Of a stretch of 35,926 nucleotides of DNA, positions 22,523-32,909 are shown one piece after another (the stretch's first letter is position 1; every line of letters begins with the position of its first letter). The DNA comes from Bacteroidia bacterium. GTDB taxonomy: Bacteria; Bacteroidota; Bacteroidia; UKL13-3. The notes below the pieces were generated by a model that saw only the letters and a list, made by a program, of their open reading frames with translations, was not told the DNA's origin and ran no database searches. The DNA is taken from positions 1 to 35,926 of the forward strand of contig JAGPCK010000029.1 in the NCBI GenBank assembly GCA_018058135.1. The letters run 5' to 3'. Made by a program: the position numbers and the translations under genes.

Positions 22523-23050
22523 TCAATTAATGCGCCCTGCTCCCACAAAGCTGTTTTTAAAATAGGCTTCATCCAGACCACTGATCATCACTCCTTTGCT
22601 GCTGCTCACGTGTACAAACTTATTTTCATTGAGGTAAAGTCCCACGTGTGAAACCTTTACTGATTTAATTTTAAAAAACACCAAATCACCTTCTCTCAAA
22701 TCTTTTGATTCAATTCGTTGGGTTTTGGTAAACATCTCATGCGAACTACGACCCACATCTTTGCGGTACACTTCGGCTAACACCATTTTTATAAAACAGG
22801 AGCAATCGGTACCTGATTTAGAACAGCCATTATCCTTATGCGGAACACCTATCCAATCCTGAATTAATTCATACAAAGCAATATTGGATTGTTCGTTGAT
22901 GCTGACGTTGAGTTGCTTCGAGAGTTGCGCTATCTTCTTTCGTTCCGTTTTGGCGGATGTTGAAGAAACTGTTTTACGCGATTTGCAGGAGGGTAGTAAA
23001 ATTACCCCGCTCAAAAAAAACAGTAGTATGTATTTGCGGAAAGGTCTCAC
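22523..23050 (-). CDS. NlpC/P60 family lipoprotein (peptidoglycan endopeptidase)
   Basis: A 175-residue lipoprotein: hydrophobic segment followed by lipobox LLPSC with Cys22 as lipidation site. The C-terminal NlpC/P60 domain (about 58-172) has catalytic Cys83 in GTDCSCFIK, His135 in VSHVGLYL and polar third residue His147 in FVHVSSSKG. The GDLVFFK string before the catalytic His is typical. The family hydrolyses peptide bonds in cell-wall stem peptides. It lies 18 bp after paaD and overlaps the region of the next start, so it may be read from the paa promoter, though its function has no known link to phenylacetate. Confidence 0.88.
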
Positions 23051-23068
23051 TCCGCAAAAATATAAAAA

Positions 23069-23554
23069 TTATACTACAGGTTTAAATTGTTCAAAGGCTT
23101 GCAAACAATTGTTGCAATAATGCAGTGAACGGCACAAAGTAGGCCCGAAAGGCGACTTGGTATCCGTATTAGTGCTGCCGCAAAACGGACAAGGAACATG
23201 TTCCAATAACTCCTGCGTTATTTCTCCGTTGTGTTTGGGCGGTGGTGCCAGACCATGTTTTTTTAAACACATCAACCCCCGTTCAGTAATTTTATTACTG
23301 TCCCAGGGTTTATCAAAGGTGGTCACCACGTGAGGTGAGGAAATACCTGCTTCTCGCAAACGGTCGGCCACCATGTTTTCCATCATTTTTATTGCCGGAC
23401 AACCGGAAAATGTAGGAGTCATTTCTACATACACATCATCTTCACCACGCACTTCTATTTTGGTAATGATACCCATATCCACCATACTGAGCGTAGGAAT
23501 TTCAGGATCCTTAACTACTTCGAGTATTTTCCAGATATCTTGTTCGTTGTACAT
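23069..23554 (-). CDS. paaD: PaaD, phenylacetyl-CoA epoxidase accessory/assembly protein
   Basis: A 161-residue protein with an N-terminal MIP18/DUF59 domain (KDPEIPTLSMVDMGIITKIEV; FSGCPAIKMME) and a C-terminal cysteine cluster (CPFCGSTNTDT, then CRSLHYCNNC) that could bind zinc or iron-sulfur. This combination is characteristic of PaaD, which is needed for a functional epoxidase, probably in iron-sulfur or diiron maturation. Its ATG follows the stop codon of the TIR gene by a single base, where in ordinary operons it would follow paaC directly. Base composition is like paaC, not like the inserted gene. Confidence 0.92.
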   Translation of the reverse strand: MYNEQDIWKILEVVKDPEIPTLSMVDMGIITKIEVRGEDDVYVEMTPTFSGCPAIKMMENMVADRLREAGISSPHVVTTFDKPWDSNKITERGLMCLKKHGLAPPPKHNGEITQELLEHVPCPFCGSTNTDTKSPFGPTLCRSLHYCNNCLQAFEQFKPVV

Positions 23555-23555
23555 G

Positions 23556-24524
23556 TTATTTAATTTTATTGAGCCCGTTTAAATAGGTTAAAAAAGCTTC
23601 TCGGACCTTAATAATATCAACTTCGCATTTAGCTAATCCTTGCATCTGAATCAAAAAAGGGCAAGGGTTCGTATAATCCATAGTCCCACCAACAATTTCC
23701 ATCAAGTCCTTATTCTTAAAATCAGATAAGTCAATATCAACAAAACTGAAAGAGCTTACTATTTCCTCATTAATCATTAACTCTATTATCTTGTTTTTAA
23801 TGTCCAACTTATATGAAAGGAAGAACGTGCTATTTGGAGGGCCAGTTTTACTTAAACGAGCATTTAGTGAAATTTCAATATTGTTTGAAGTAGTTAATGT
23901 GACTGCAATAGAATTATTTTCATGAATTAATATTGACAACTTTGAATGTCGCCTTCCTCTAACTCCCAATTGGTACAGACACTTTTCCATCTGTGGATTG
24001 TAAAGATGTGGGAGGGCTGCACCAATAATTAATATTAGCCCATCTTTTTCGATATCGATTGACTCATCAAATTTTGTAACAATGAATCCTGTATGATTTG
24101 AAATCCCTGAATGATCAATTATTTCCTGACATAAAAAATCAATTCCCTTATTTGTATTTGTTCCTTTTATATCATGCAGAAGAGGATACTTTTTAGCAAA
24201 GTCAGAATGATCTATATTGTGAAATATGGGAATTATTCGCTTGCCCGTTGTTGTTGAAATGGAAAAAATAGAGTTCAATTCTTTATTTGTCCAATCCTTT
24301 CGTAAAAATTCTGGGCTTATAATTAATAAGAATACCTTAGATTCTATTAGCCCTTGATTTATTTTCTCAACAATACTATCGCCAAGCTTAATAGAATATT
24401 CATCATAGAACGTCAGATAACCAAATTTTAGCAATCTATTGGCAAATTCACGAACAAACTCATCTTTGTCTTCGCTTGCATGACTAATAAAAAAATCAAC
24501 TGTCTTTTTTCTTTCTTCTGACAT
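23556..24524 (-). CDS. TIR-domain protein inserted between paaC and paaD
   Basis: A 322-residue protein from ATG 24524; an in-frame GTG at 24542 overlapping the paaC stop would add 6 residues. The N-terminal TIR_2 domain (about 8-140) shows DFFISHASEDKDEF, YDEYSIKLGDSI, VFLLIISPEFL and RKDWTNKEL. The W-x-x-x-E motif (W78, E82) carries the glutamate that is catalytic in NAD-cleaving TIR proteins, so enzyme activity is plausible. The C-terminal half (about 150-322) has no motif I can name; strings such as SYKLDIKNKIIELMINEEIV look like a LamG/concanavalin-like beta-sandwich. No membrane segment. It is much more AT-rich than its neighbours: two sampled 60-base lines have 18 and 16 G/C, against 29 in paaC and 27 in paaD. 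Its product has no known part in phenylacetate breakdown; acquisition by transfer is likely. Confidence 0.87.
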   Translation of the reverse strand: MSEERKKTVDFFISHASEDKDEFVREFANRLLKFGYLTFYDEYSIKLGDSIVEKINQGLIESKVFLLIISPEFLRKDWTNKELNSIFSISTTTGKRIIPIFHNIDHSDFAKKYPLLHDIKGTNTNKGIDFLCQEIIDHSGISNHTGFIVTKFDESIDIEKDGLILIIGAALPHLYNPQMEKCLYQLGVRGRRHSKLSILIHENNSIAVTLTTSNNIEISLNARLSKTGPPNSTFFLSYKLDIKNKIIELMINEEIVSSFSFVDIDLSDFKNKDLMEIVGGTMDYTNPCPFLIQMQGLAKCEVDIIKVREAFLTYLNGLNKIK

Positions 24525-24535
24525 ACTAGTATTTT

Positions 24536-25285
24536 CTACCACTCCGCACCCGGGTCAATACGAAATACTTCGGCCATCTCTTCCACCAACGGATCAAGGT
24601 GCTCTGTATGGTATCCCTTGCGACCGCCCAGCTTCGGCTCCCAGGTTTTTTCTTCAGGAATTTTTAATGAAGCTTTGGCCAAAACGGGTTGGATGGTTTC
24701 GAGCCAACGTGCTTTTAATGCAGCTTCCCCTTCAAATATTTTCTCGCTGATAAGTTGCTGTTCAAATTCACTTTCTTCAAAGATGCCCAGCGCATAGTTC
24801 CATGCTTCGTTGAGGGAGGTTTGCATGCGTGCATGACTTTCTTCGGTTGCTGCTCCCAGTTTGGTTACCCAGGTGTTGGCATGAAATACATGGTACTTGA
24901 GTTCACCTTTTATTTTACGAGAAACCTTGGCCAGTGGTTCATAGCTGCTGTTGGCCAACATTTCAAAACGCAACTGATCTGCCACATCATACAAAAAATG
25001 ACGTATGGTGCTAAAATCATAATCACCATTGGGCAACTCCACCAACTGACAATTGTGAAACTGATTTGCCTGCCGGGTAAAGGCTACCGTATCAGGTTCC
25101 TGTTCGCCCAGTTCATGCAAAAGTTGAAACAGAGCTTGCGATTGCCCTATTTTATCCTGAGCCATGGAAGAGAAGGCAATGTCTTCTTCCAATATAGGAC
25201 CAAGTCCAGTCCACTCACTATTGCGGTGCCCGATGATAAGCAGGTCATCGGCCATTTTATATAAAAGTTCTTTAACGTGATTCAT
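24536..25285 (-). CDS. paaC: PaaC, structural subunit of phenylacetyl-CoA 1,2-epoxidase
   Basis: A 249-residue all-helical ferritin-like protein matching PaaC in length and strings (KMADDLLIIGHRNSEWTG, LGPILEEDIAFSSMAQDKIGQ, RHFLYDVADQLRFEML, KYHVFHANTWVTKLG, GRKGYHTEHLDPLVEEM). PaaC pairs with the catalytic PaaA but lacks the diiron ligands. It ends with TAG at 24536-24538, 11 bp before the preferred ATG of the TIR gene, and begins 79 bp after paaB. Confidence 0.92.
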   Translation of the reverse strand: MNHVKELLYKMADDLLIIGHRNSEWTGLGPILEEDIAFSSMAQDKIGQSQALFQLLHELGEQEPDTVAFTRQANQFHNCQLVELPNGDYDFSTIRHFLYDVADQLRFEMLANSSYEPLAKVSRKIKGELKYHVFHANTWVTKLGAATEESHARMQTSLNEAWNYALGIFEESEFEQQLISEKIFEGEAALKARWLETIQPVLAKASLKIPEEKTWEPKLGGRKGYHTEHLDPLVEEMAEVFRIDPGAEW

Positions 25286-25364
25286 TTTTCTGACAAATTA
25301 TATGGTTGTTGGATTACAAAAATCAAAAGGCCAAGTCCCTGTATTGACTAATGATTTTGAACCT

Positions 25365-25736
25365 CTATACTTTTTGTTCTTTTTTGTATTTATTAATTTT
25401 CTCCATCACTTTGTAGCCACCGGCCTCGCGGTATTGCTTCTCGGGAACGGTTTCAAAAATGTCCTGGTCATCGTATTCACTGGCAAAAACGTGTGCTGTT
25501 TTTACTACCCAAATATTGGCTGTAATTCCCCTGCGTCCGTATTGCTCTTTACCAAACAACAAAGCCATTTCTGGGTTTGGTGCGTGAACAATGCCAACGT
25601 GCATGTGCTGATCGCCACGTTTTTTCTGGTGAAATACTTCATACGTTTCCCAGTTGTCCATCTCTTTCAATGGCTCAATGGAATTATCAAGTTCTATTTG
25701 CTCCCTTGTAATTCGGGGGTCCAGTGATTTTATCAT
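25365..25736 (-). CDS. paaB: PaaB, small subunit of phenylacetyl-CoA 1,2-epoxidase
   Basis: A 123-residue protein with the PaaB core: WETYEVFHQKKRGDQHMHVG, VHAPNPEMALLFGKEQYGRRG and NIWVVKTAHVFAS. PaaB bridges PaaA-PaaC heterodimers in the complex. The extended N-terminus (about 25 residues before the core) is common in Bacteroidota copies. It is separated from paaA by 167 bp that contains a decayed small element, an unusually large gap for this operon. Confidence 0.92.
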   Translation of the reverse strand: MIKSLDPRITREQIELDNSIEPLKEMDNWETYEVFHQKKRGDQHMHVGIVHAPNPEMALLFGKEQYGRRGITANIWVVKTAHVFASEYDDQDIFETVPEKQYREAGGYKVMEKINKYKKEQKV

Positions 25737-25756
25737 CTTATTAATTGTAAAATTTT

Positions 25757-25894
25757 CAAATTAGGAGATTACAGATTTTTTCGATTGGTGCTTACTCTGG
25801 TATTTCATACCGCTTTTAATATTTTTTGAACTATTTGTTACAAACTGTCAATGTCTTCGAATTTCTCAATCTTCATAATCTGCAATTTGTAATC
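25757..25894 (-). mobile_element. Remnant of a small element flanked by imperfect inverted repeats
   Basis: The paaA-paaB gap is bounded by related sequences in opposite orientation: plus-strand AATCTGCAATTTGTAATC at 25877-25894, and at 25757-25778 a string that begins CAAATTAGGAG and ends ATTACAGATTT. Reverse-complemented, the first contains CAAATTGCAGATT, which aligns with CAAATT...ACAGATT of the second with an 8-base difference. Between them lies the broken four-helix-bundle gene. The repeats plus broken gene suggest an inserted and then deleted element; its class is inference. Confidence 0.4.
25761..25876 (-). pseudogene. Decayed four-helix-bundle (S23/IVS-type) gene remnant
   Basis: From ATG 25876 the minus strand reads MKIEKFEDIDSL and stops (25838). 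MKIEKFEDI is the typical opening of free-standing four-helix-bundle proteins of the 23S rRNA intervening-sequence (S23) family in Bacteroidota, which continue with a W-[KQ]-x-A-R motif for about 110 more residues. Here the middle is gone. Another frame reads SGMKYQSKHQSKKS up to a stop at 25761-25763, compatible with the original C-terminus. The N-terminal match is convincing; the C-terminal one is tentative. Confidence 0.5.
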
Positions 25895-25903
25895 ATGCCA
25901 GTA

Positions 25904-26893
25904 CTACGCCAGCGGGGTTACATATTTTTCAGTTTTGTTGATGAGTGCTTCACGTACCCAGCGTCCGCGTTCTTCGGCATTTCTGCGTACAGCCAAACGC
26001 TCTGCATTGCAGGGACCATCTCCGTTAATTACACGTTTAAACTCTTCCCAATCGGGCTCGGTGTATTCCCATTTGCCTGTTGTTTCATTCTTCTTCAGAT
26101 TGGTATCTGGAACGGTTAATCCCAAGTCCCAAATTTTCGGAACATACATATTCAAAAACTGCTGACGCATATCATCGTTGGAAGCCATCTTCACTTTCCA
26201 GCGCATCAGTATTTCGGTATGATTTGAAATTTTATCACTCGGACCAAAGAAGTGCATGATGGGCGGCCACCAGCGGTTAAGCGCTTCCTGCACCATTTTA
26301 CGCTGCACAGGAGTGCCTGTAGCCAATGTTACCACATTATCGTGCCCGTACTTGAGGTGAAAACTTTCTTCGGTACAAATGCGGTCGAGCGCACGGCAAT
26401 ATGGTCCGTAACTTCCTTTGGCATTGGCTACCTGATTTATAATTGCTCCGGCATCTATCAACCAGGCAATCACACAAGCATCGGCCCAGGTGAATGCAGG
26501 GTAATTAAATACATTAGAGTATTTTGATTTCCCGGTAATCAAATCGTTGATCATGGCCTCACGGCTTTTACCCAAAGTTTCGGCAGCACTGTATAACAAT
26601 TGTGCATGGCCTACTTCATCCTGTACCTTGGCCATCAAAGCCAATTTGCGTCTGAAGCCCGGGGCACGGGTAATCCAGGTTCCTTCCGGCAGGGCTCCTA
26701 TAATTTCAGAATGCGCGTGTTGCTCAATCATTCGAACCAGTTGCTTGCGGTATTCTGCGGGCATCCAATCCTTCGGTTCTATTTTTTCGCCACGAGCAAT
26801 GCGGGCCTCAAATTCAGCCAGTTTAACCGGGTCTTCGCCTTCTAACATTTTAGCGGCTTTGTCATTGGGGTCTATATATGCGTTTCCGTACAT
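25904..26893 (-). CDS. paaA: PaaA, catalytic diiron subunit of phenylacetyl-CoA 1,2-epoxidase
   Basis: A 329-residue ferritin-like oxygenase subunit. Diiron ligand motifs are visible as DEVGH (92-96) and EESFH (175-179). Other family strings: [43 protein letters not shown] and [14 protein letters not shown]. It adds one oxygen atom across the ring of phenylacetyl-CoA, with electrons normally supplied by PaaE. Length is as expected. It starts 20 bp after the tetR stop, so both are probably on one transcript. Confidence 0.94.
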
Positions 26894-26913
26894 ATTACTT
26901 TGTTTTTATTTTT

Positions 26914-27522
26914 TCAGGGTTTGTAATTGATATCGGTAATCATCTTTTTGCGCAAACCACTCCATATAAAATGAGTGAGGTGTGCTGCAATTTCATCTGG
27001 GCTCATTTTGCCCTCGGCACTGTACCATTCATTCACCCAGTTTACTGAGGCAAGAATGGTGAGCACAGCAAATTTTTTATCTACGTTGTCGAATAAATCT
27101 TCTTTTTCGCCATCGTCCATTATCTGGTAAAATCCTTGCTCATAGCGGTCGCGCAGTTGTTTAAATTCAGACAAACGGGGCTCGCTCAGGTAACGCCAGT
27201 CATGTAAAAAAACGGCTGATGCATCCCTGTCATTGGTAAGTAATTTTACGTGATTCAGAATAGCCATGCGCAATTTTTCCGTGGCGTTGAAATAAATGTC
27301 GTTTACTTCATCAATGCCCTGAAGAAATTTTTCGGCCATAGTGAAACAAATGGTTTCCAGAATTTCTTCTTTTGATTTTACGTGGCTGTATAAACTTGAT
27401 GCTTCAATGCCCAATGCCTGCGCAATATCGCGCACGGTGGTTACGGCATATCCTTTGTTTCTGAACAATCCGGCTGATACAGCCAAAATCTGTTCTTTAC
27501 GGTTTTGTATTGCTTCAGACAT
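26914..27522 (-). CDS. TetR-family regulator, probable repressor of the paa operon
   Basis: About 202 residues from ATG 27522; an in-frame TTG at 27537 is the alternative but falls inside a palindrome. The N-terminal TetR HTH is clear: ILAVSAGLFRNKGYAVTTVRDIAQALG then SLYSHVKSKEEIL. The C-terminal domain is helical and ligand-binding-like. TetR regulators next to paa genes (PaaR) respond to phenylacetyl-CoA in other bacteria; position as first gene of this operon supports the same role here. A 16-bp palindrome lies 8 bp before the start codon. Confidence 0.85.
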   Translation of the reverse strand: MSEAIQNRKEQILAVSAGLFRNKGYAVTTVRDIAQALGIEASSLYSHVKSKEEILETICFTMAEKFLQGIDEVNDIYFNATEKLRMAILNHVKLLTNDRDASAVFLHDWRYLSEPRLSEFKQLRDRYEQGFYQIMDDGEKEDLFDNVDKKFAVLTILASVNWVNEWYSAEGKMSPDEIAAHLTHFIWSGLRKKMITDINYKP

Positions 27523-27529
27523 AATGCTA

Positions 27530-27545
27530 CCAAACAATTGTTAGG
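27530..27545. promoter_or_regulatory. Palindromic operator candidate for the TetR/PaaR-like regulator
   Basis: CCAAACAATTGTTAGG is a 16-bp palindrome with a single mismatched pair and a perfect 10-bp core AACAATTGTT (27533-27542). It sits 8-23 bp upstream of the tetR ATG, where binding would block transcription or early elongation. From memory, the PaaR operator of Thermus thermophilus has the pattern CNAACGNNCGTTNG; the 14 bases 27531-27544 fit it except for two symmetrical substitutions. No convincing TAnnTTTG box was seen nearby. Confidence 0.55.
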
Positions 27546-27586
27546 CAAGTTATGTTTTTGATTTTTAAGGTGCAAATAATTTTTCA

Positions 27587-28576
27587 TTATAGCTTAATGA
27601 ACTTAAATCTATATGATTGACCTGTGGATTTATCAACCATTTCAATTATGTACGCTCCCTTAGGATAAGCCTCAATATCAAATGAAAGTTTACTAGTTGT
27701 ATGAGCATATAGATCTTCTGAATGAAATTTACGGCCTGCAACATCTAAAATCGTGATTTTTAGGTCAGAGTTTTTAACACAATTATAGCCTGATGCCTCA
27801 ATTGTTAAATGACTATGTGTCGGATTAGGGTAGGCAAAGAAATCATTGCATTTAGTTAATAATGGGGCTGTTTCATTTCCTAAAGAAGTATTTTCCTCTT
27901 GGTAAAACTTATACTTTTTCTCAGATTTATTATGAGTTGAATCTTTCGAATCAAAATGAATTTTCACTTTACCAGAAAAATAACCCGCTATGTAAATATT
28001 TGAAATAGAGTCTTTTTCAATATAATATACCCCTTCATTACCAGCACCGCCTATTGTTCTTACCCATTTAAGAGTATTATGCTTATCATAGTTAAATAAA
28101 GCGATATCTGTACCTCCAGAACTTTTGTATTGAGTGCCATTTACGCTAAATGGCGATAAATAGCTGCTTGCTAACAACTTATTACCAAAACTATCTATTA
28201 AAATTGTTCTACCAAATTTTGAATAAATTGAATTGGTCACAGTGTTGCTTTTAAACTTCTTAACTGTGTCAATCTTTGAAAAGAAGGATACCCCCTTGAT
28301 TGCAGAATAGCTCTTTGAATCAATGAGAATGGTTGAATCCAAAACACTTTTGTTATGTAAAAAGAAAAGTGTTTTAGGTTCCTTTTCAGCATATATATGA
28401 AAGGCATAGGATACACTATCTGTTTTACCTTGTTTTGCCCACACAACATTTCCACTGCTATCAAGCATTATAAACATCATTTCTTTTACTGCCAAAGTAT
28501 GAAGATTGATAGTATTCTGTCCTTTTACAAAAAAGGAAATAAACAGAAAAAGGCTGATAAAAAATATCTTACGCAT
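27587..28576 (-). CDS. Secreted beta-propeller-like protein with type A T9SS sorting domain
   Basis: A 329-residue protein. Signal peptide (IFFISLFLFISFFVKGQ, about 3-20). The middle contains SBBP-like propeller strings (DSFGNKLLASSY; DSISNIYIAGYFSG; LKWVRTIGGAGNEG), but only about two blades, fewer than a closed propeller needs. The C-terminal about 80 residues form a type A T9SS sorting domain: FFAYPNPTHSHLTIEASG, KITILDVAGRKFHSE, YPKGAYIIEMVD, FKFIKL. It should therefore cross the outer membrane through the T9SS and be attached to, or shed from, the surface. Third gene of an AT-rich trio, 10 bp after the previous one. Confidence 0.85.
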   Translation of the reverse strand: MRKIFFISLFLFISFFVKGQNTINLHTLAVKEMMFIMLDSSGNVVWAKQGKTDSVSYAFHIYAEKEPKTLFFLHNKSVLDSTILIDSKSYSAIKGVSFFSKIDTVKKFKSNTVTNSIYSKFGRTILIDSFGNKLLASSYLSPFSVNGTQYKSSGGTDIALFNYDKHNTLKWVRTIGGAGNEGVYYIEKDSISNIYIAGYFSGKVKIHFDSKDSTHNKSEKKYKFYQEENTSLGNETAPLLTKCNDFFAYPNPTHSHLTIEASGYNCVKNSDLKITILDVAGRKFHSEDLYAHTTSKLSFDIEAYPKGAYIIEMVDKSTGQSYRFKFIKL

Positions 28577-28586
28577 AAATATAGGT

Positions 28587-30047
28587 TTATCTAATTAATT
28601 CAAAAAATCCATTTTTAACTTTCCGGCTTTCTTCAAATGATGAATATTCACATGTAAAAAAATAGACGCCTGCCGCTGCTTCTATTCCATTGATTTTACC
28701 ATCCCATGCCAATACATCTGAACAATTGTTTTGCTGAAAAACTATCTGCCCCCATCGGTTATAAACAGTGAAATTATAAATGAAATTATTTTTGCAATCA
28801 ACTGTATAGGTATCATTGAATAAATCATTGTTAGGGGTGAAAACATTGGCAAAAAAGGGACTACCATAAGCCCCAAGTTCAACTTCGAAACTATCTTGGG
28901 GTATCTCAATCGAATCTTCAATCACAGAAAAAATACTCGCAATAAAATTGGGTAAACCTTCACCCGATTGAGCTGATAAAAGATCGACTTCATTATCACT
29001 AACCAAACATGCTAATCCCTTAAGGTCTGGCTTTGTTATTTTACCAATATAATTATCAGAATATTGCTTGCAAAAATAAAGTACGTTACCCGGGGCTCTC
29101 TGAATAGCGCTTATTGGACACTTAAAAGTTGAACAATTGGAATCTCTAAATAATACAGTATAATTTGATGCTATATACTCTCTTTCAAGCTTGCGTAAAT
29201 CTAATTGTACCAGCCCATAACCTGCAACATATAAAAATTGATTATTGGGAGAAAACTCAATACCGTATGGATCCTGAACGCCTCTAATCGTACAAATTAA
29301 CTTATGATGGCCTGTTTTGTTATTAAATGAAAATAGCTGTACAATATTATTTGAGTTGTTGGCCCAAGCTAAAAACTTTCCATTAGCACTATATTTCATA
29401 TATCCCAGTACGTATGAATTTTTTGTATTAAAGCCAGTAAATGACTTAACGGGAACGCTGTCAAACCCATTGCTTGAAATTAAGTAAGAATAAAACGCTC
29501 TTTCCCCAAAATTTCTTACCGTTACCCATATAGCATTTTTATCTGAATGATGTACAGCACACATTTGCTCAGAAATTGAATCACTTATTAAACGACCCGC
29601 TTTGATAACCACAGCACTATCTGAACCTTTGGTAGTATCTATAACTGAGAGGTAAAACTTACCTGAACTAGCAGAAATGCTAAACATATAAATGTGAAGA
29701 GTATTTTCTATACTGGGAATAAAAATACACCCCTGAGTCGTTGAACTGCTGCCAAAACTAGGCAGGATCATGTTTAGCAAAACCTTATTATTTTTATCAA
29801 ACAATTTATGTCCGTCAGTATAAAATAAAAGTTTCCCATTTGTGTCGCTGATGCTTGCCACACCCTCGCTGCCCGAAAATTGAGAGGATGCACTTTGAGA
29901 TACCTTTTGAACATCACCAGAATTATTGAACTTGAGAACCGTATTTTGTCCAATAACCCAAGTTTGAGCATTCAGTTCTGTTAAGCCTTGACAAAAGGTC
30001 AAAGTAATTTGTATAAAAAAAAGTAAAAAGCAAATGAGGTATCTCAT
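28587..30047 (-). CDS. Secreted beta-propeller protein with gliding-type (type B) C-terminal domain
   Basis: A 486-residue protein. Signal peptide (LICFLLFFIQITLTFCQ). Residues about 25-370 form a propeller-like region with the family opening QTWVIGQNTVLKFN and later YMKYSANGKFLAWANN, IEFSPNNQFLYVAGYG and GLPNFI. The C-terminal about 90 residues are a gliding-motility-associated sorting domain (CHU_C type): ANVFTPNNDLFNDTY, FTVYNRWGQIVFQQN, AWDGKINGIEAAAGVYFFTC. Exported by the T9SS; specific function unknown. Its ATG directly abuts the stop of the upstream gene, implying co-translation. Confidence 0.87.
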   Translation of the reverse strand: MRYLICFLLFFIQITLTFCQGLTELNAQTWVIGQNTVLKFNNSGDVQKVSQSASSQFSGSEGVASISDTNGKLLFYTDGHKLFDKNNKVLLNMILPSFGSSSTTQGCIFIPSIENTLHIYMFSISASSGKFYLSVIDTTKGSDSAVVIKAGRLISDSISEQMCAVHHSDKNAIWVTVRNFGERAFYSYLISSNGFDSVPVKSFTGFNTKNSYVLGYMKYSANGKFLAWANNSNNIVQLFSFNNKTGHHKLICTIRGVQDPYGIEFSPNNQFLYVAGYGLVQLDLRKLEREYIASNYTVLFRDSNCSTFKCPISAIQRAPGNVLYFCKQYSDNYIGKITKPDLKGLACLVSDNEVDLLSAQSGEGLPNFIASIFSVIEDSIEIPQDSFEVELGAYGSPFFANVFTPNNDLFNDTYTVDCKNNFIYNFTVYNRWGQIVFQQNNCSDVLAWDGKINGIEAAAGVYFFTCEYSSFEESRKVKNGFFELIR

Positions 30048-32909
30048 CTAATCTACAATAATAAACAGGTATAATCTCCCACCATATAACTTATAAGTAT
30101 CAGACTTTGTTTCCCATTTAGGATTTAAACATCGACCCGGAAGTCCAAAAGCAATGTCAAACCAAGTTCTATGATAATCTTTACACGCCCATTTCCTATA
30201 TCTTCTATTTATAAAAGTATTTTCATAACCCGGGCTGCAATTTTTTAAATCAAGGAAGAAATTATAATCGTCAGGCATCAACCTTCTGCCACCATACACT
30301 AAATTCCAATGAATCTCCCCATTGTAAAACCCCGAAGGGTGGAAGCCATCAAAGATATTTCCTTCCTTTACTTTTACCCATTCACCGTACTCTGCATTAA
30401 AGTATAGTTTATATTGAGTTAAGTTATATGAATTATACTCCCACTGAAGATCCTCTACACTTGATATGTATAACCCTTCTCTACCAACAACATCATACCA
30501 ACTCAATGTATCTATTGGCCCCCAATTTAGTGTTGAACTAATCACCACCTTACCCAAAGTATCTTGTCCACAAGGGTTGGATACATTAGCAACAAATCTA
30601 ACTGTATCACCACCGTTTATTTTGGCAAAAACCGTTTTACCGTATAGTATCTCAGAATTTTTATCGTTAGTCCAATAAACATCACCCAATGCGGTTGATG
30701 TGGCTGTTAACCTAACACCACAATTTACTAATTCTTCTATTATACTAATATTTGAAGGTGGGCCATTAAAAATTCTTACTGTATCGTATGAACTGCAATT
30801 AAATTCATCATCAACCCGAAGCACATATTTCAACACCCCATTCACCCATTGGGGTGTACAATTTCCTGAATTAAAAGTTGGATTGGCAACGTTTGCACTT
30901 GACAAGCATGTACTGGGTGACCACAAGTAAGTTTTACCCAAGCTTGGGTTATCGCCCAAATAAAGTGTACATGGATTACTTGTACAACACAAATCCTGCC
31001 CGGCTTTGCCTTCTGCCGGGCATGATATGAATACCGTTTTGGTAGTTGTTCTCCATTCTGTACAATTATCCTTAACCGCCAATGTTACTTTATAGTATTT
31101 ATTGCATGCAAATTTTCTTCCATCACCTTCATACAAAGCCTTTATATCAAATAATGCAGCTGGCTTATTAAAATACATGTACCTTTCCCTAGTATCCTCT
31201 ATCTCCTGTTGACTATTGTCGAGCTCAACAATATCTATGTAATGGTCTTGCTCTGCAACACTTGCACTTCCGTCTAATTGGTATGTCTCATCTGCATAAC
31301 AGAAAGTTGAAGGACCGTTTAATGTAGGGGCAACTAAATCCTCTACACACAAATCAACATAACTGTACCCATCATGCCACTTAGCGGAACAATCAAGATT
31401 ATACATTTCTAAAATTACTGTCTGCCCGATAAAATTTGATAGATCAACCTGATAACATTTCCATTGTTTTCCTACAGTTGGTTCTATCAATTCAACAACT
31501 ATTGAATTCGGGTTATTTGCATCTGCGAAAACTTCCTTATGTTGTATAATATTACGTTTTGGCGATAGGCCTAAGTTCTTGCGCCTTAAAATAATACGAA
31601 AACCAGGTTGGTCCATGAATGAATGTTTCCCATCTTCTCCGACATAGGCATAGTGAATTTTAAACTGAGCATTCTCTGGTGTCACTGTAAATACTTTCTG
31701 CATCAAATCAACATCATTCCCTGCATCAAATATAGCACCACCCAACTTTATAGAATGGTTGCCACCTCCCAAAGGTACCAAAGGTATATGTGCCGGGAAA
31801 TGCCCATCATTCCCTGTTGACATAATTTCGATATCTTTCCTCCCTTCTGTAATTGATATACCATCAGGTCGTACATTCGGCCCTGTATAGGGGTATAGTG
31901 AATGTTTGCCATTGAAGTACCTCCAACCATCAACATCAAGCCTAGCCGATTCAAACCCATCAAATATGCAACCTGCGCTTCTTTTCTGGAAAATCTTTGG
32001 AAAAGTGTCTCCTGAGTTAGATGTTATCCTGAAAATATAAGGAACAGCATAACCGTAGTTAGACCCAATAGGTAAACCTGAATTTAAGTCAAAAGAGCGG
32101 ATGGTCCATACGTAATCTTGACCACTCTGCAATAAAAGGGCTGCTGCTTGCGGTAGTATACAGTTGGTTGAATCTATAAAAGAAAGATCAATAAGTGCCT
32201 CGGCTGTATCTGTAATTGTTTCATAATAACTTTTCGTAGAATCAGTGTAAGGGTAAACAATCAATTGGTATAATATAGAATTCCCTGGATTTGGCGTTAA
32301 CGGATACCATTCAAATTGAATTTCTTCTGTTCTTGCAGCATAAACATACGCATTATCATATGGTCCAATTAAACCTGGGCTTTGATATGCCCCTACGTTT
32401 AATGACGTTGATACATTGTACAACATAGAAGTGTATGTACTATTGTAAACTTGAACATTTAATGTATAACTACCAGAAGGCAATTTTCTATTATCATAAA
32501 TTATTGAACCCAATGAATCTGGGAAATTTAAAGAAGAGTACCGCATAAACTCTTCAGCATAAATTCTATTATTTCCAGCAGTAAGAGTATCAGAATAATT
32601 CTTGAGAATTAATGAAAAAGTATCAATAAAATTCTGATTTAATGTGTCACCTTGCTCATAAAAAAGAGTATCAAAGATGGCTGTATCTGTTTCAAATACT
32701 TTTTGACTTGAGTATGTGAGTGTAACAAAATACCTAACCACTTGTTGATTTGGCACCGAATTAATATCGACATAAATAGAGTTTTTGTGTTCAATCCATT
32801 CGTCAAAGAATGGAGACATTAAGCTATCTGAGCTTAGTGATATTGACTGTGCGAATACACCATTACTTAAGCAAAAAACAAGAATCAGATAAAATGAGAC
32901 TTTTTTCAT
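30048..32909 (-). CDS. Large secreted surface protein with Ig/PKD-like domains and a divergent C-terminus
   Basis: A 953-residue protein with signal peptide (VSFYLILVFCLSNGVFAQ, about 4-21). The N-terminal part (about 22-310) has strings such as QSPGLIGPYDNAYVYAARTEEIQFEWYPL, like Bacteroidota outer-membrane scaffold proteins with fibronectin-type domains. The middle (about 315-530) carries a lectin-like or jelly-roll segment (DGFESARLDVDGWRYF). Later Cys-rich Ig/PKD-like segments read LWSPSTCLSSANVANPTF. Near the end YKLYFNAEYGEWVKV and PDDYNFFLDLKNC look like a divergent gliding-type domain, but about 60 further residues follow, ending YLFIIVD. No clear sorting signal was found. First gene of the AT-rich trio (one sampled 60-base line has only 13 G/C). 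Confidence 0.75.
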   Translation of the reverse strand: MKKVSFYLILVFCLSNGVFAQSISLSSDSLMSPFFDEWIEHKNSIYVDINSVPNQQVVRYFVTLTYSSQKVFETDTAIFDTLFYEQGDTLNQNFIDTFSLILKNYSDTLTAGNNRIYAEEFMRYSSLNFPDSLGSIIYDNRKLPSGSYTLNVQVYNSTYTSMLYNVSTSLNVGAYQSPGLIGPYDNAYVYAARTEEIQFEWYPLTPNPGNSILYQLIVYPYTDSTKSYYETITDTAEALIDLSFIDSTNCILPQAAALLLQSGQDYVWTIRSFDLNSGLPIGSNYGYAVPYIFRITSNSGDTFPKIFQKRSAGCIFDGFESARLDVDGWRYFNGKHSLYPYTGPNVRPDGISITEGRKDIEIMSTGNDGHFPAHIPLVPLGGGNHSIKLGGAIFDAGNDVDLMQKVFTVTPENAQFKIHYAYVGEDGKHSFMDQPGFRIILRRKNLGLSPKRNIIQHKEVFADANNPNSIVVELIEPTVGKQWKCYQVDLSNFIGQTVILEMYNLDCSAKWHDGYSYVDLCVEDLVAPTLNGPSTFCYADETYQLDGSASVAEQDHYIDIVELDNSQQEIEDTRERYMYFNKPAALFDIKALYEGDGRKFACNKYYKVTLAVKDNCTEWRTTTKTVFISCPAEGKAGQDLCCTSNPCTLYLGDNPSLGKTYLWSPSTCLSSANVANPTFNSGNCTPQWVNGVLKYVLRVDDEFNCSSYDTVRIFNGPPSNISIIEELVNCGVRLTATSTALGDVYWTNDKNSEILYGKTVFAKINGGDTVRFVANVSNPCGQDTLGKVVISSTLNWGPIDTLSWYDVVGREGLYISSVEDLQWEYNSYNLTQYKLYFNAEYGEWVKVKEGNIFDGFHPSGFYNGEIHWNLVYGGRRLMPDDYNFFLDLKNCSPGYENTFINRRYRKWACKDYHRTWFDIAFGLPGRCLNPKWETKSDTYKLYGGRLYLFIIVD

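Follow-up and report, generated by a model that had tools for sequence, protein, structure and literature searches.

The window, meaning here the whole stretch of DNA analysed, comprises 35,926 nucleotides from a Bacteroidia bacterium (lineage UKL13-3; assembly GCA_018058135.1, contig JAGPCK010000029.1). The gene in question lies inside its operon for phenylacetate breakdown (paa), between paaC and paaD, and codes for a protein with a TIR domain followed by a domain of predicted lectin fold. The gene, its parts and its neighbours are as follows.

23556..24524, minus strand: TIR plus lectin-fold gene, 322 amino acids (ATG at 24524, stop ending at 23556)
24093..24503, minus strand: TIR domain, residues 8-144 (Pfam; PDB sequence matches to AbTir, BtTir and TcpB; fold comparison)
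24291-24293 and 24279-24281, minus strand: codons of W78 and E82
23580..24092, minus strand: C-terminal domain, residues 145-315, predicted concanavalin/LamG (CBM40-like) beta-sandwich
24525..24535, minus strand: spacer from the paaC stop to the TIR ATG, 11 bp
23555..23555, minus strand: spacer from the TIR stop to the paaD ATG (23554), 1 bp
24536..25285, minus strand: paaC, intact, 249 amino acids, stop at 24536 (Pfam PF05138, E 1e-73)
23069..23554, minus strand: paaD, intact, 161 amino acids (Pfam PaaD zinc ribbon, E 1.7e-20, and FeS_assembly_P, E 1.2e-13)
25365..25736, minus strand: paaB (Pfam PaaB, E 1.9e-25)
25904..26893, minus strand: paaA (Pfam PF05138, E 1.2e-82)
26914..27522, minus strand: TetR-family regulator, upstream of paaA (Pfam TetR_C_24, E 7.3e-32)

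The coordinates, strand and spacers given to the TIR gene in an initial annotation agree with a check of the open reading frames (ORFs), and its naming of paaA, paaB, paaC and paaD agrees with Pfam. An alternative in-frame GTG at 24542, overlapping the end of paaC, would extend the protein to 328 amino acids. The TetR gene starts at TTG 27537 in the ORF list, and the in-frame ATG at 27522 was taken instead.

Given its placement and the two short spacers, expression of the TIR gene would follow the paa operon. No full match to a promoter pattern of Bacteroidota type was identified in 23001-27700. Sigma-70-like matches were more frequent (21 in the region, 12.7 with a standard deviation of 4.1 in shuffles), and one of 9 in 12 letters, at 24558-24531, ends just ahead of the TIR ATG; by this weak match the gene could have a promoter of its own. 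A terminator-like site lies on the coding strand inside the gene (23953-23935), being one of 2 such sites in the region, against 4.8 in shuffles.

The TIR domain is recognised by Pfam as TIR_2 (PF13676; E 1.2e-20, 74.6 bits, cut-off 28) and as TIR (PF01582; E 7.2e-14, 52.4 bits, cut-off 21.3), and fold prediction likewise returns a TIR fold. The closest solved structures are AbTir, BtTir and TcpB, and the W78/E82 motif aligns with that of AbTir. Together with 45 relatives the window protein forms a family of fixed TIR-plus-lectin-fold architecture, in which Trp78 and Glu82 of the W-x-x-x-E motif, the latter presumably the catalytic residue, are unchanged in all 46 aligned members. The TIR domain with an intact motif proposed in the initial annotation therefore stands; that annotation described the TIR half and overlooked the 180 residues at the C-terminus. 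By analogy with known TIR families, the domain would act on NAD+ by hydrolysis or cyclisation.

For residues 145-315 a lectin fold of the concanavalin/LamG (CBM40-like) type is predicted, with the structure of a beta-sandwich. No lectin or LamG profile was identified among the Pfam matches of the window protein up to E 1. In this protein (P0001) the stretch of residues 205-298 (23631-23912) is without R205, S221, W227 and G298, which are common to 42 of the 46 members, and its binding face may therefore differ from that of the others; the substitutions in its C-terminal domain include R205 to S and W227 to T.

The two halves of the protein change at different speeds. With the window protein and P0003 set aside, the remaining 44 members have a median pairwise identity of 0.615 for the TIR half and 0.344 for the C-terminal half. 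Identity of the window protein to those 44 is 0.463 and 0.206, and to P0003, its nearest relative, 0.657 and 0.439, respectively. A slow TIR half joined to a fast C-terminal half fits a fixed effector with a changing sensor. Two region searches for the lectin-fold half joined to other effectors yielded 9 and 7 proteins, each of which has a TIR domain; these searches are weak, as only proteins of similar length with shared words were kept.

The site between paaC and paaD was compared in relatives. PaaC was searched in 147 genomes and matched in 125 (own genome included in both counts). The surroundings of paaC were read at 69 loci from 67 of the 124 other genomes with a match. These 67 comprise every other family genome in which PaaC matched (62 in all) and 5 of the 62 at class level. 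The 69 loci do not include the additional, distant copies of paaC in G014, G018, G031 and G040, and three loci (L026, L176, L192) offer less than 800 bp of sequence. PaaD directly follows paaC at 29 loci; the distance ranges between an overlap of 7 bp and a gap of 201 bp in 28 of them, and is 331 bp in L011 owing to a run of N in paaC. No paaD was identified in the available stretch at the other 40, some of which end at a contig edge. The statement that paaABCD normally adjoin thus holds only in part for these loci. No TIR match (E 1e-5) was found at any of the 69 loci, including the 29 with paaD after paaC, and a vertically inherited member of the paa operon was rejected on this ground. The finding that the initial annotation named as contrary to an insertion, namely a gene of normal composition at the same position in all close relatives, was thus not made.

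Both genomes of the same genus present the empty site, with paaC-paaD spacers of 32 and 30 bp. The order tetR-paaABCD-nlpC-glycosyltransferase-gldA-gldF is common to the window and to these two genomes, with gldG reached in G002 only; both contain extra genes between nlpC and the glycosyltransferase gene, and G002 also between paaD and nlpC. A TIR match to the window protein was identified in 13 of the 147 genomes, own included. At full length, relatives were identified in two family genomes out of 64, namely the own genome and G011, in the same two out of 395 class genomes, and in the own genome alone out of 395 phylum genomes, where the other 12 matches cover the TIR part; at most five candidates per genome were scored in the phylum and class scans, so that some may have been missed. 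The G011 TIR protein is 35% identical to that of the window and its PaaC 85%, and for this reason shared inheritance of the two TIR genes is judged unlikely from the sequences. Since the relatives examined are without the gene at this site, it is likely, on sequence comparison, to have been acquired horizontally between paaC and paaD.

Composition is in line with the AT-richness noted initially. The TIR gene has a GC content of 0.316 and a GC at third codon positions (GC3) of 0.272, versus 0.415-0.472 and 0.407-0.476 in tetR, paaA, paaB, paaC and paaD, and only one of 71 flanking 960-bp intervals is as low in GC. Three further AT-rich genes are located just upstream of the TetR gene, at 27587-32909 (GC 0.315-0.363, GC3 0.255-0.286), and composition alone is therefore not diagnostic of an insertion.

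Two other routes to the present arrangement were considered. In the first, which we regard as rather unlikely, a paaB-paaC-TIR-paaD segment from another lineage would have recombined into the resident operon. PaaB, PaaC and PaaD of the window are 91-93, 85-86 and 86% identical to those of genus g10 and only 77-79, 74-75 and 77-78% to those of the same-genus genomes, and none of the downstream genes nlpC, glycosyltransferase, gldA and gldF, which the window has in common with the same-genus genomes, was identified in the approximately 8 kb after paaD in the two g10 genomes. However, paaC of the same-genus genomes is about equally far from all those compared (72-75%), so that these genomes are perhaps the divergent ones and the exchange may have taken place on either side. 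The g10 genomes are likewise without TIR at the junction, no carrier of such a segment was found among the loci read, and a replacement would concern the route of arrival and not the function. Exchange of the paa operon segment at 23069-26893 with another genus is possible in its own right. In the second, an error of assembly or binning would have joined the TIR gene to the paa operon. The assembly consists of 127 contigs with a completeness of 84.2%, and the gene differs sharply from its surroundings in composition; however, both flanks are on one contig with a gene order common to the same-genus genomes, paaC and paaD are both intact, and the 90% cluster of the window protein comprises 3 member sequences on 4 contigs, which may or may not span the junction. 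Such an artefact is highly improbable.

Other accessory genes were observed next to paa genes. An AAA_14-DUF4143 gene follows paaD (G002, L216:7818-8960; G049, L013) or paaC (G061, L023), identified by Pfam in G002, with whose copy the other two group by BLAST. In both g10 genomes a convergent ORF with HTH and Fic domains, read by Pfam on the G022 copy, is located just after paaD (L214:7057-8109 in G022, L215:8395-9447 in G011). Solo accessory genes may settle repeatedly on the 3' side of the paa operon.

A contig scan gave 530 confirmed loci; among the best 80 of them, those matching over most of the length of the protein were L032-L035. L032 and L213 (G011), on contigs of equal length, contain the same ORFs and were taken as one locus. 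The setting of the gene at these four loci is as follows.

L035: gene 103 bp after ribonucleotide reductase genes
L034: gene 111 bp after a superoxide dismutase gene
L033 (the cyanobacterium Nodosilinea nodulosa): gene 172 bp after a heavy-metal P-type ATPase gene
L032/L213: gene at the contig edge

None of the neighbours read at these loci is a paa gene; each of the eight scanned is either a metabolic or an ankyrin gene or lacks a Pfam match. The GC of the gene is 30-38% between flanks of 39 to 59% across loci, and lies below every flanking 960-bp interval in L033, L035 and L213. By its composition such a gene looks like travelling cargo. As vehicles, viruses and plasmids were rejected for the full-length gene: the matches of 46 viral loci extend no further than residue 139, and those of 303 plasmid records all stay below 80% coverage of the query (among the 15 listed, two Arthrobacter plasmids cover 67% and the others the TIR part). 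Six phage records match with a coverage of 35-40%. A target-site duplication was also rejected, the best direct pair at the junctions being of 8 bp, found in 9% of 500 shuffles, with its right copy inside paaD and away from the border; the best inverted pair, of 7 bp, was reached in 25% of 500 shuffles.

The explanation that we favour, with moderate confidence, is that of a horizontally acquired protein with TIR and predicted lectin-fold domains, likely acting as a one-protein sensor and effector against phage, with cleavage of NAD+ as its output. Its observed basis is the gene with its two junctions, the invariant Trp and Glu of the TIR domain, the unoccupied site in both same-genus genomes, rarity, AT-richness and the same architecture at unrelated loci. 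The fast-changing C-terminal domain would bind, inside the cell, a ligand that derives from the phage or becomes exposed on infection. Binding would cluster the TIR domains, and their hydrolysis or cyclisation of NAD+ would then halt growth of the infected cell ahead of phage release. In this host the gene would be read on the paa transcript and its expression would follow phenylacetate catabolism, with no link between phage and paa implied.

Several observations weigh against this explanation. The curated profiles nearest to the TIR domain, which come from anti-phage or candidate anti-phage proteins (PADLOC PDC-S66, E 1.8e-42), match the TIR part only. The flanking genes are paa genes by Pfam and include no defence genes; no integrase, transposase or significant junction repeat was identified at the paaC and paaD junctions, and the composition contrast is absent in L034, one of the four other loci. 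Pfam Lectin_like touches only 8 of the 46 family members, with a best E of 0.00028, and the window protein is not included. Of the 20 C-terminal columns in which 40 or more of the 46 members agree, the latter deviates at 12, and its C-terminal domain may for this reason be specialised or drifting; drift in this copy is a possible cause of the divergence.

A different role was suggested in the initial annotation, that of a guard co-expressed with the epoxidase genes, whose CoA-epoxide product is toxic. In this role the TIR protein would sense the epoxide or a failing operon and trigger loss of NAD+. The gene does occupy a same-strand position inside the operon with very short spacers, and no convincing promoter of its own was identified. 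However, the 69 paaC loci read in relatives are without it, and in the four other carriers with a readable setting it is located outside paa. PaaA and PaaC have no match in two of the corresponding genomes (G530 and G531) and two matches each in G529 and G532, the completeness of these four genomes not being given. In G011 paa and a full-length relative are both present, on different contigs. A guard specific to the Paa epoxidase was rejected on the distribution of the gene, and we hold it to be very unlikely. Of the two roles first proposed, cargo that landed without breaking the operon is supported by the empty site in the same-genus genomes, the two full-length carriers among 64 family genomes and the AT-richness, and the guard lacks such support.

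A Thoeris-like role, in which the TIR domain would make a cyclic ADP-ribose isomer activating a separate effector encoded elsewhere, is improbable to a lesser degree. AbTir, BtTir and TcpB, the nearest structures, are makers of cyclic ADP-ribose isomers, and the PADLOC profile of Thoeris ThsB matches the TIR part (E 2.7e-23). On the other side, Pfam ThsB_TIR reaches 15.3 bits for a gathering score of 21.2, no thsA-type effector adjoins the gene, whose neighbours are paaC and paaD, and the eight neighbours scanned at the four other loci are of the kinds named above. STALD, the sensing domain of ThsA, gave no match in the own genome; the control was likewise without match and the assembly is 84% complete, so that this result does not establish absence of the domain.

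Taking the one-protein sensor-effector as the preferred explanation, the 46 members would be a compact family with a near-constant effector half, a fast-changing sensor-like half and no evident partner gene, and the trigger of a bacterial TIR domain could therefore be tested with a single gene. A solo immune-type gene is here placed inside a catabolic operon without a visible mobile element. More speculatively, and with a chance that we place low, proteins with TIR and concanavalin folds would be the bacterial equivalent, in one gene, of TRIM/SPRY immunity in animals. The sensor would grip a protein or glycan of the invader inside the cell and fire the NADase, and the genes would have spread singly, settling within housekeeping operons or behind them. 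In this host the dose of the protein would be tied to phenylacetate catabolism, and immunity would thus be metabolically gated.

Among known systems, the NADases AbTir, BtTir and TcpB (BtpA) have a TIR domain that starts at residues 117-155 in the matched chains, after another part, whereas in the window protein it comes first; a C-terminal partner of predicted lectin fold is present only in the latter. The closest NCBIfam profile is that of a TIR-bearing anti-phage reverse transcriptase (NF042941, E 1.8e-33; PADLOC RT-TIR_XII, E 1.2e-17). However, the match is of 116 bits for a cut-off of 600 and covers only residues 4-120 of the window protein, the TIR domain is last in that profile (positions 335-451 of 464), and no reverse transcriptase was identified among the Pfam matches of the window protein, which places it outside RT-TIR.

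Lectin-fold domains joined to effectors, including TIR, are described in bacterial conflict systems as NPCBM, of discoidin-like fold, and FGS, of C-type lectin fold, in Kaur et al. 2021 (PMC8195603). According to the same paper its authors had not observed SPRY-like domains, of concanavalin lectin fold, in prokaryotic conflict systems. The fold predicted for the window protein differs from both in being of concanavalin type, which does not imply identity with SPRY, and neither NPCBM nor FGS is among the 25 families listed for the 46 members. If true, a concanavalin-type sensor would narrow the gap between bacterial and animal immunity noted in that paper.

The CBM40-type domains of sialidases (NanB, NanC and that of R. 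gnavus) share the predicted fold of residues 145-315 at 11-15% identity, and the window protein is without a sialidase part. Arabidopsis PP2-A5, induced by spider mites according to PMC12355970, resembles the window protein in having a TIR domain and then a lectin-type (PP2) beta-sandwich, but is a plant protein of a different lectin family. No bacterial TIR-LamG/concanavalin family was found in the literature searched, which was without supplementary files and most subscription journals. As far as these sources reach, the TIR-concanavalin protein is set apart from Thoeris, RT-TIR and the NPCBM and FGS proteins, and the principle of a lectin fold joined to TIR is one already known.
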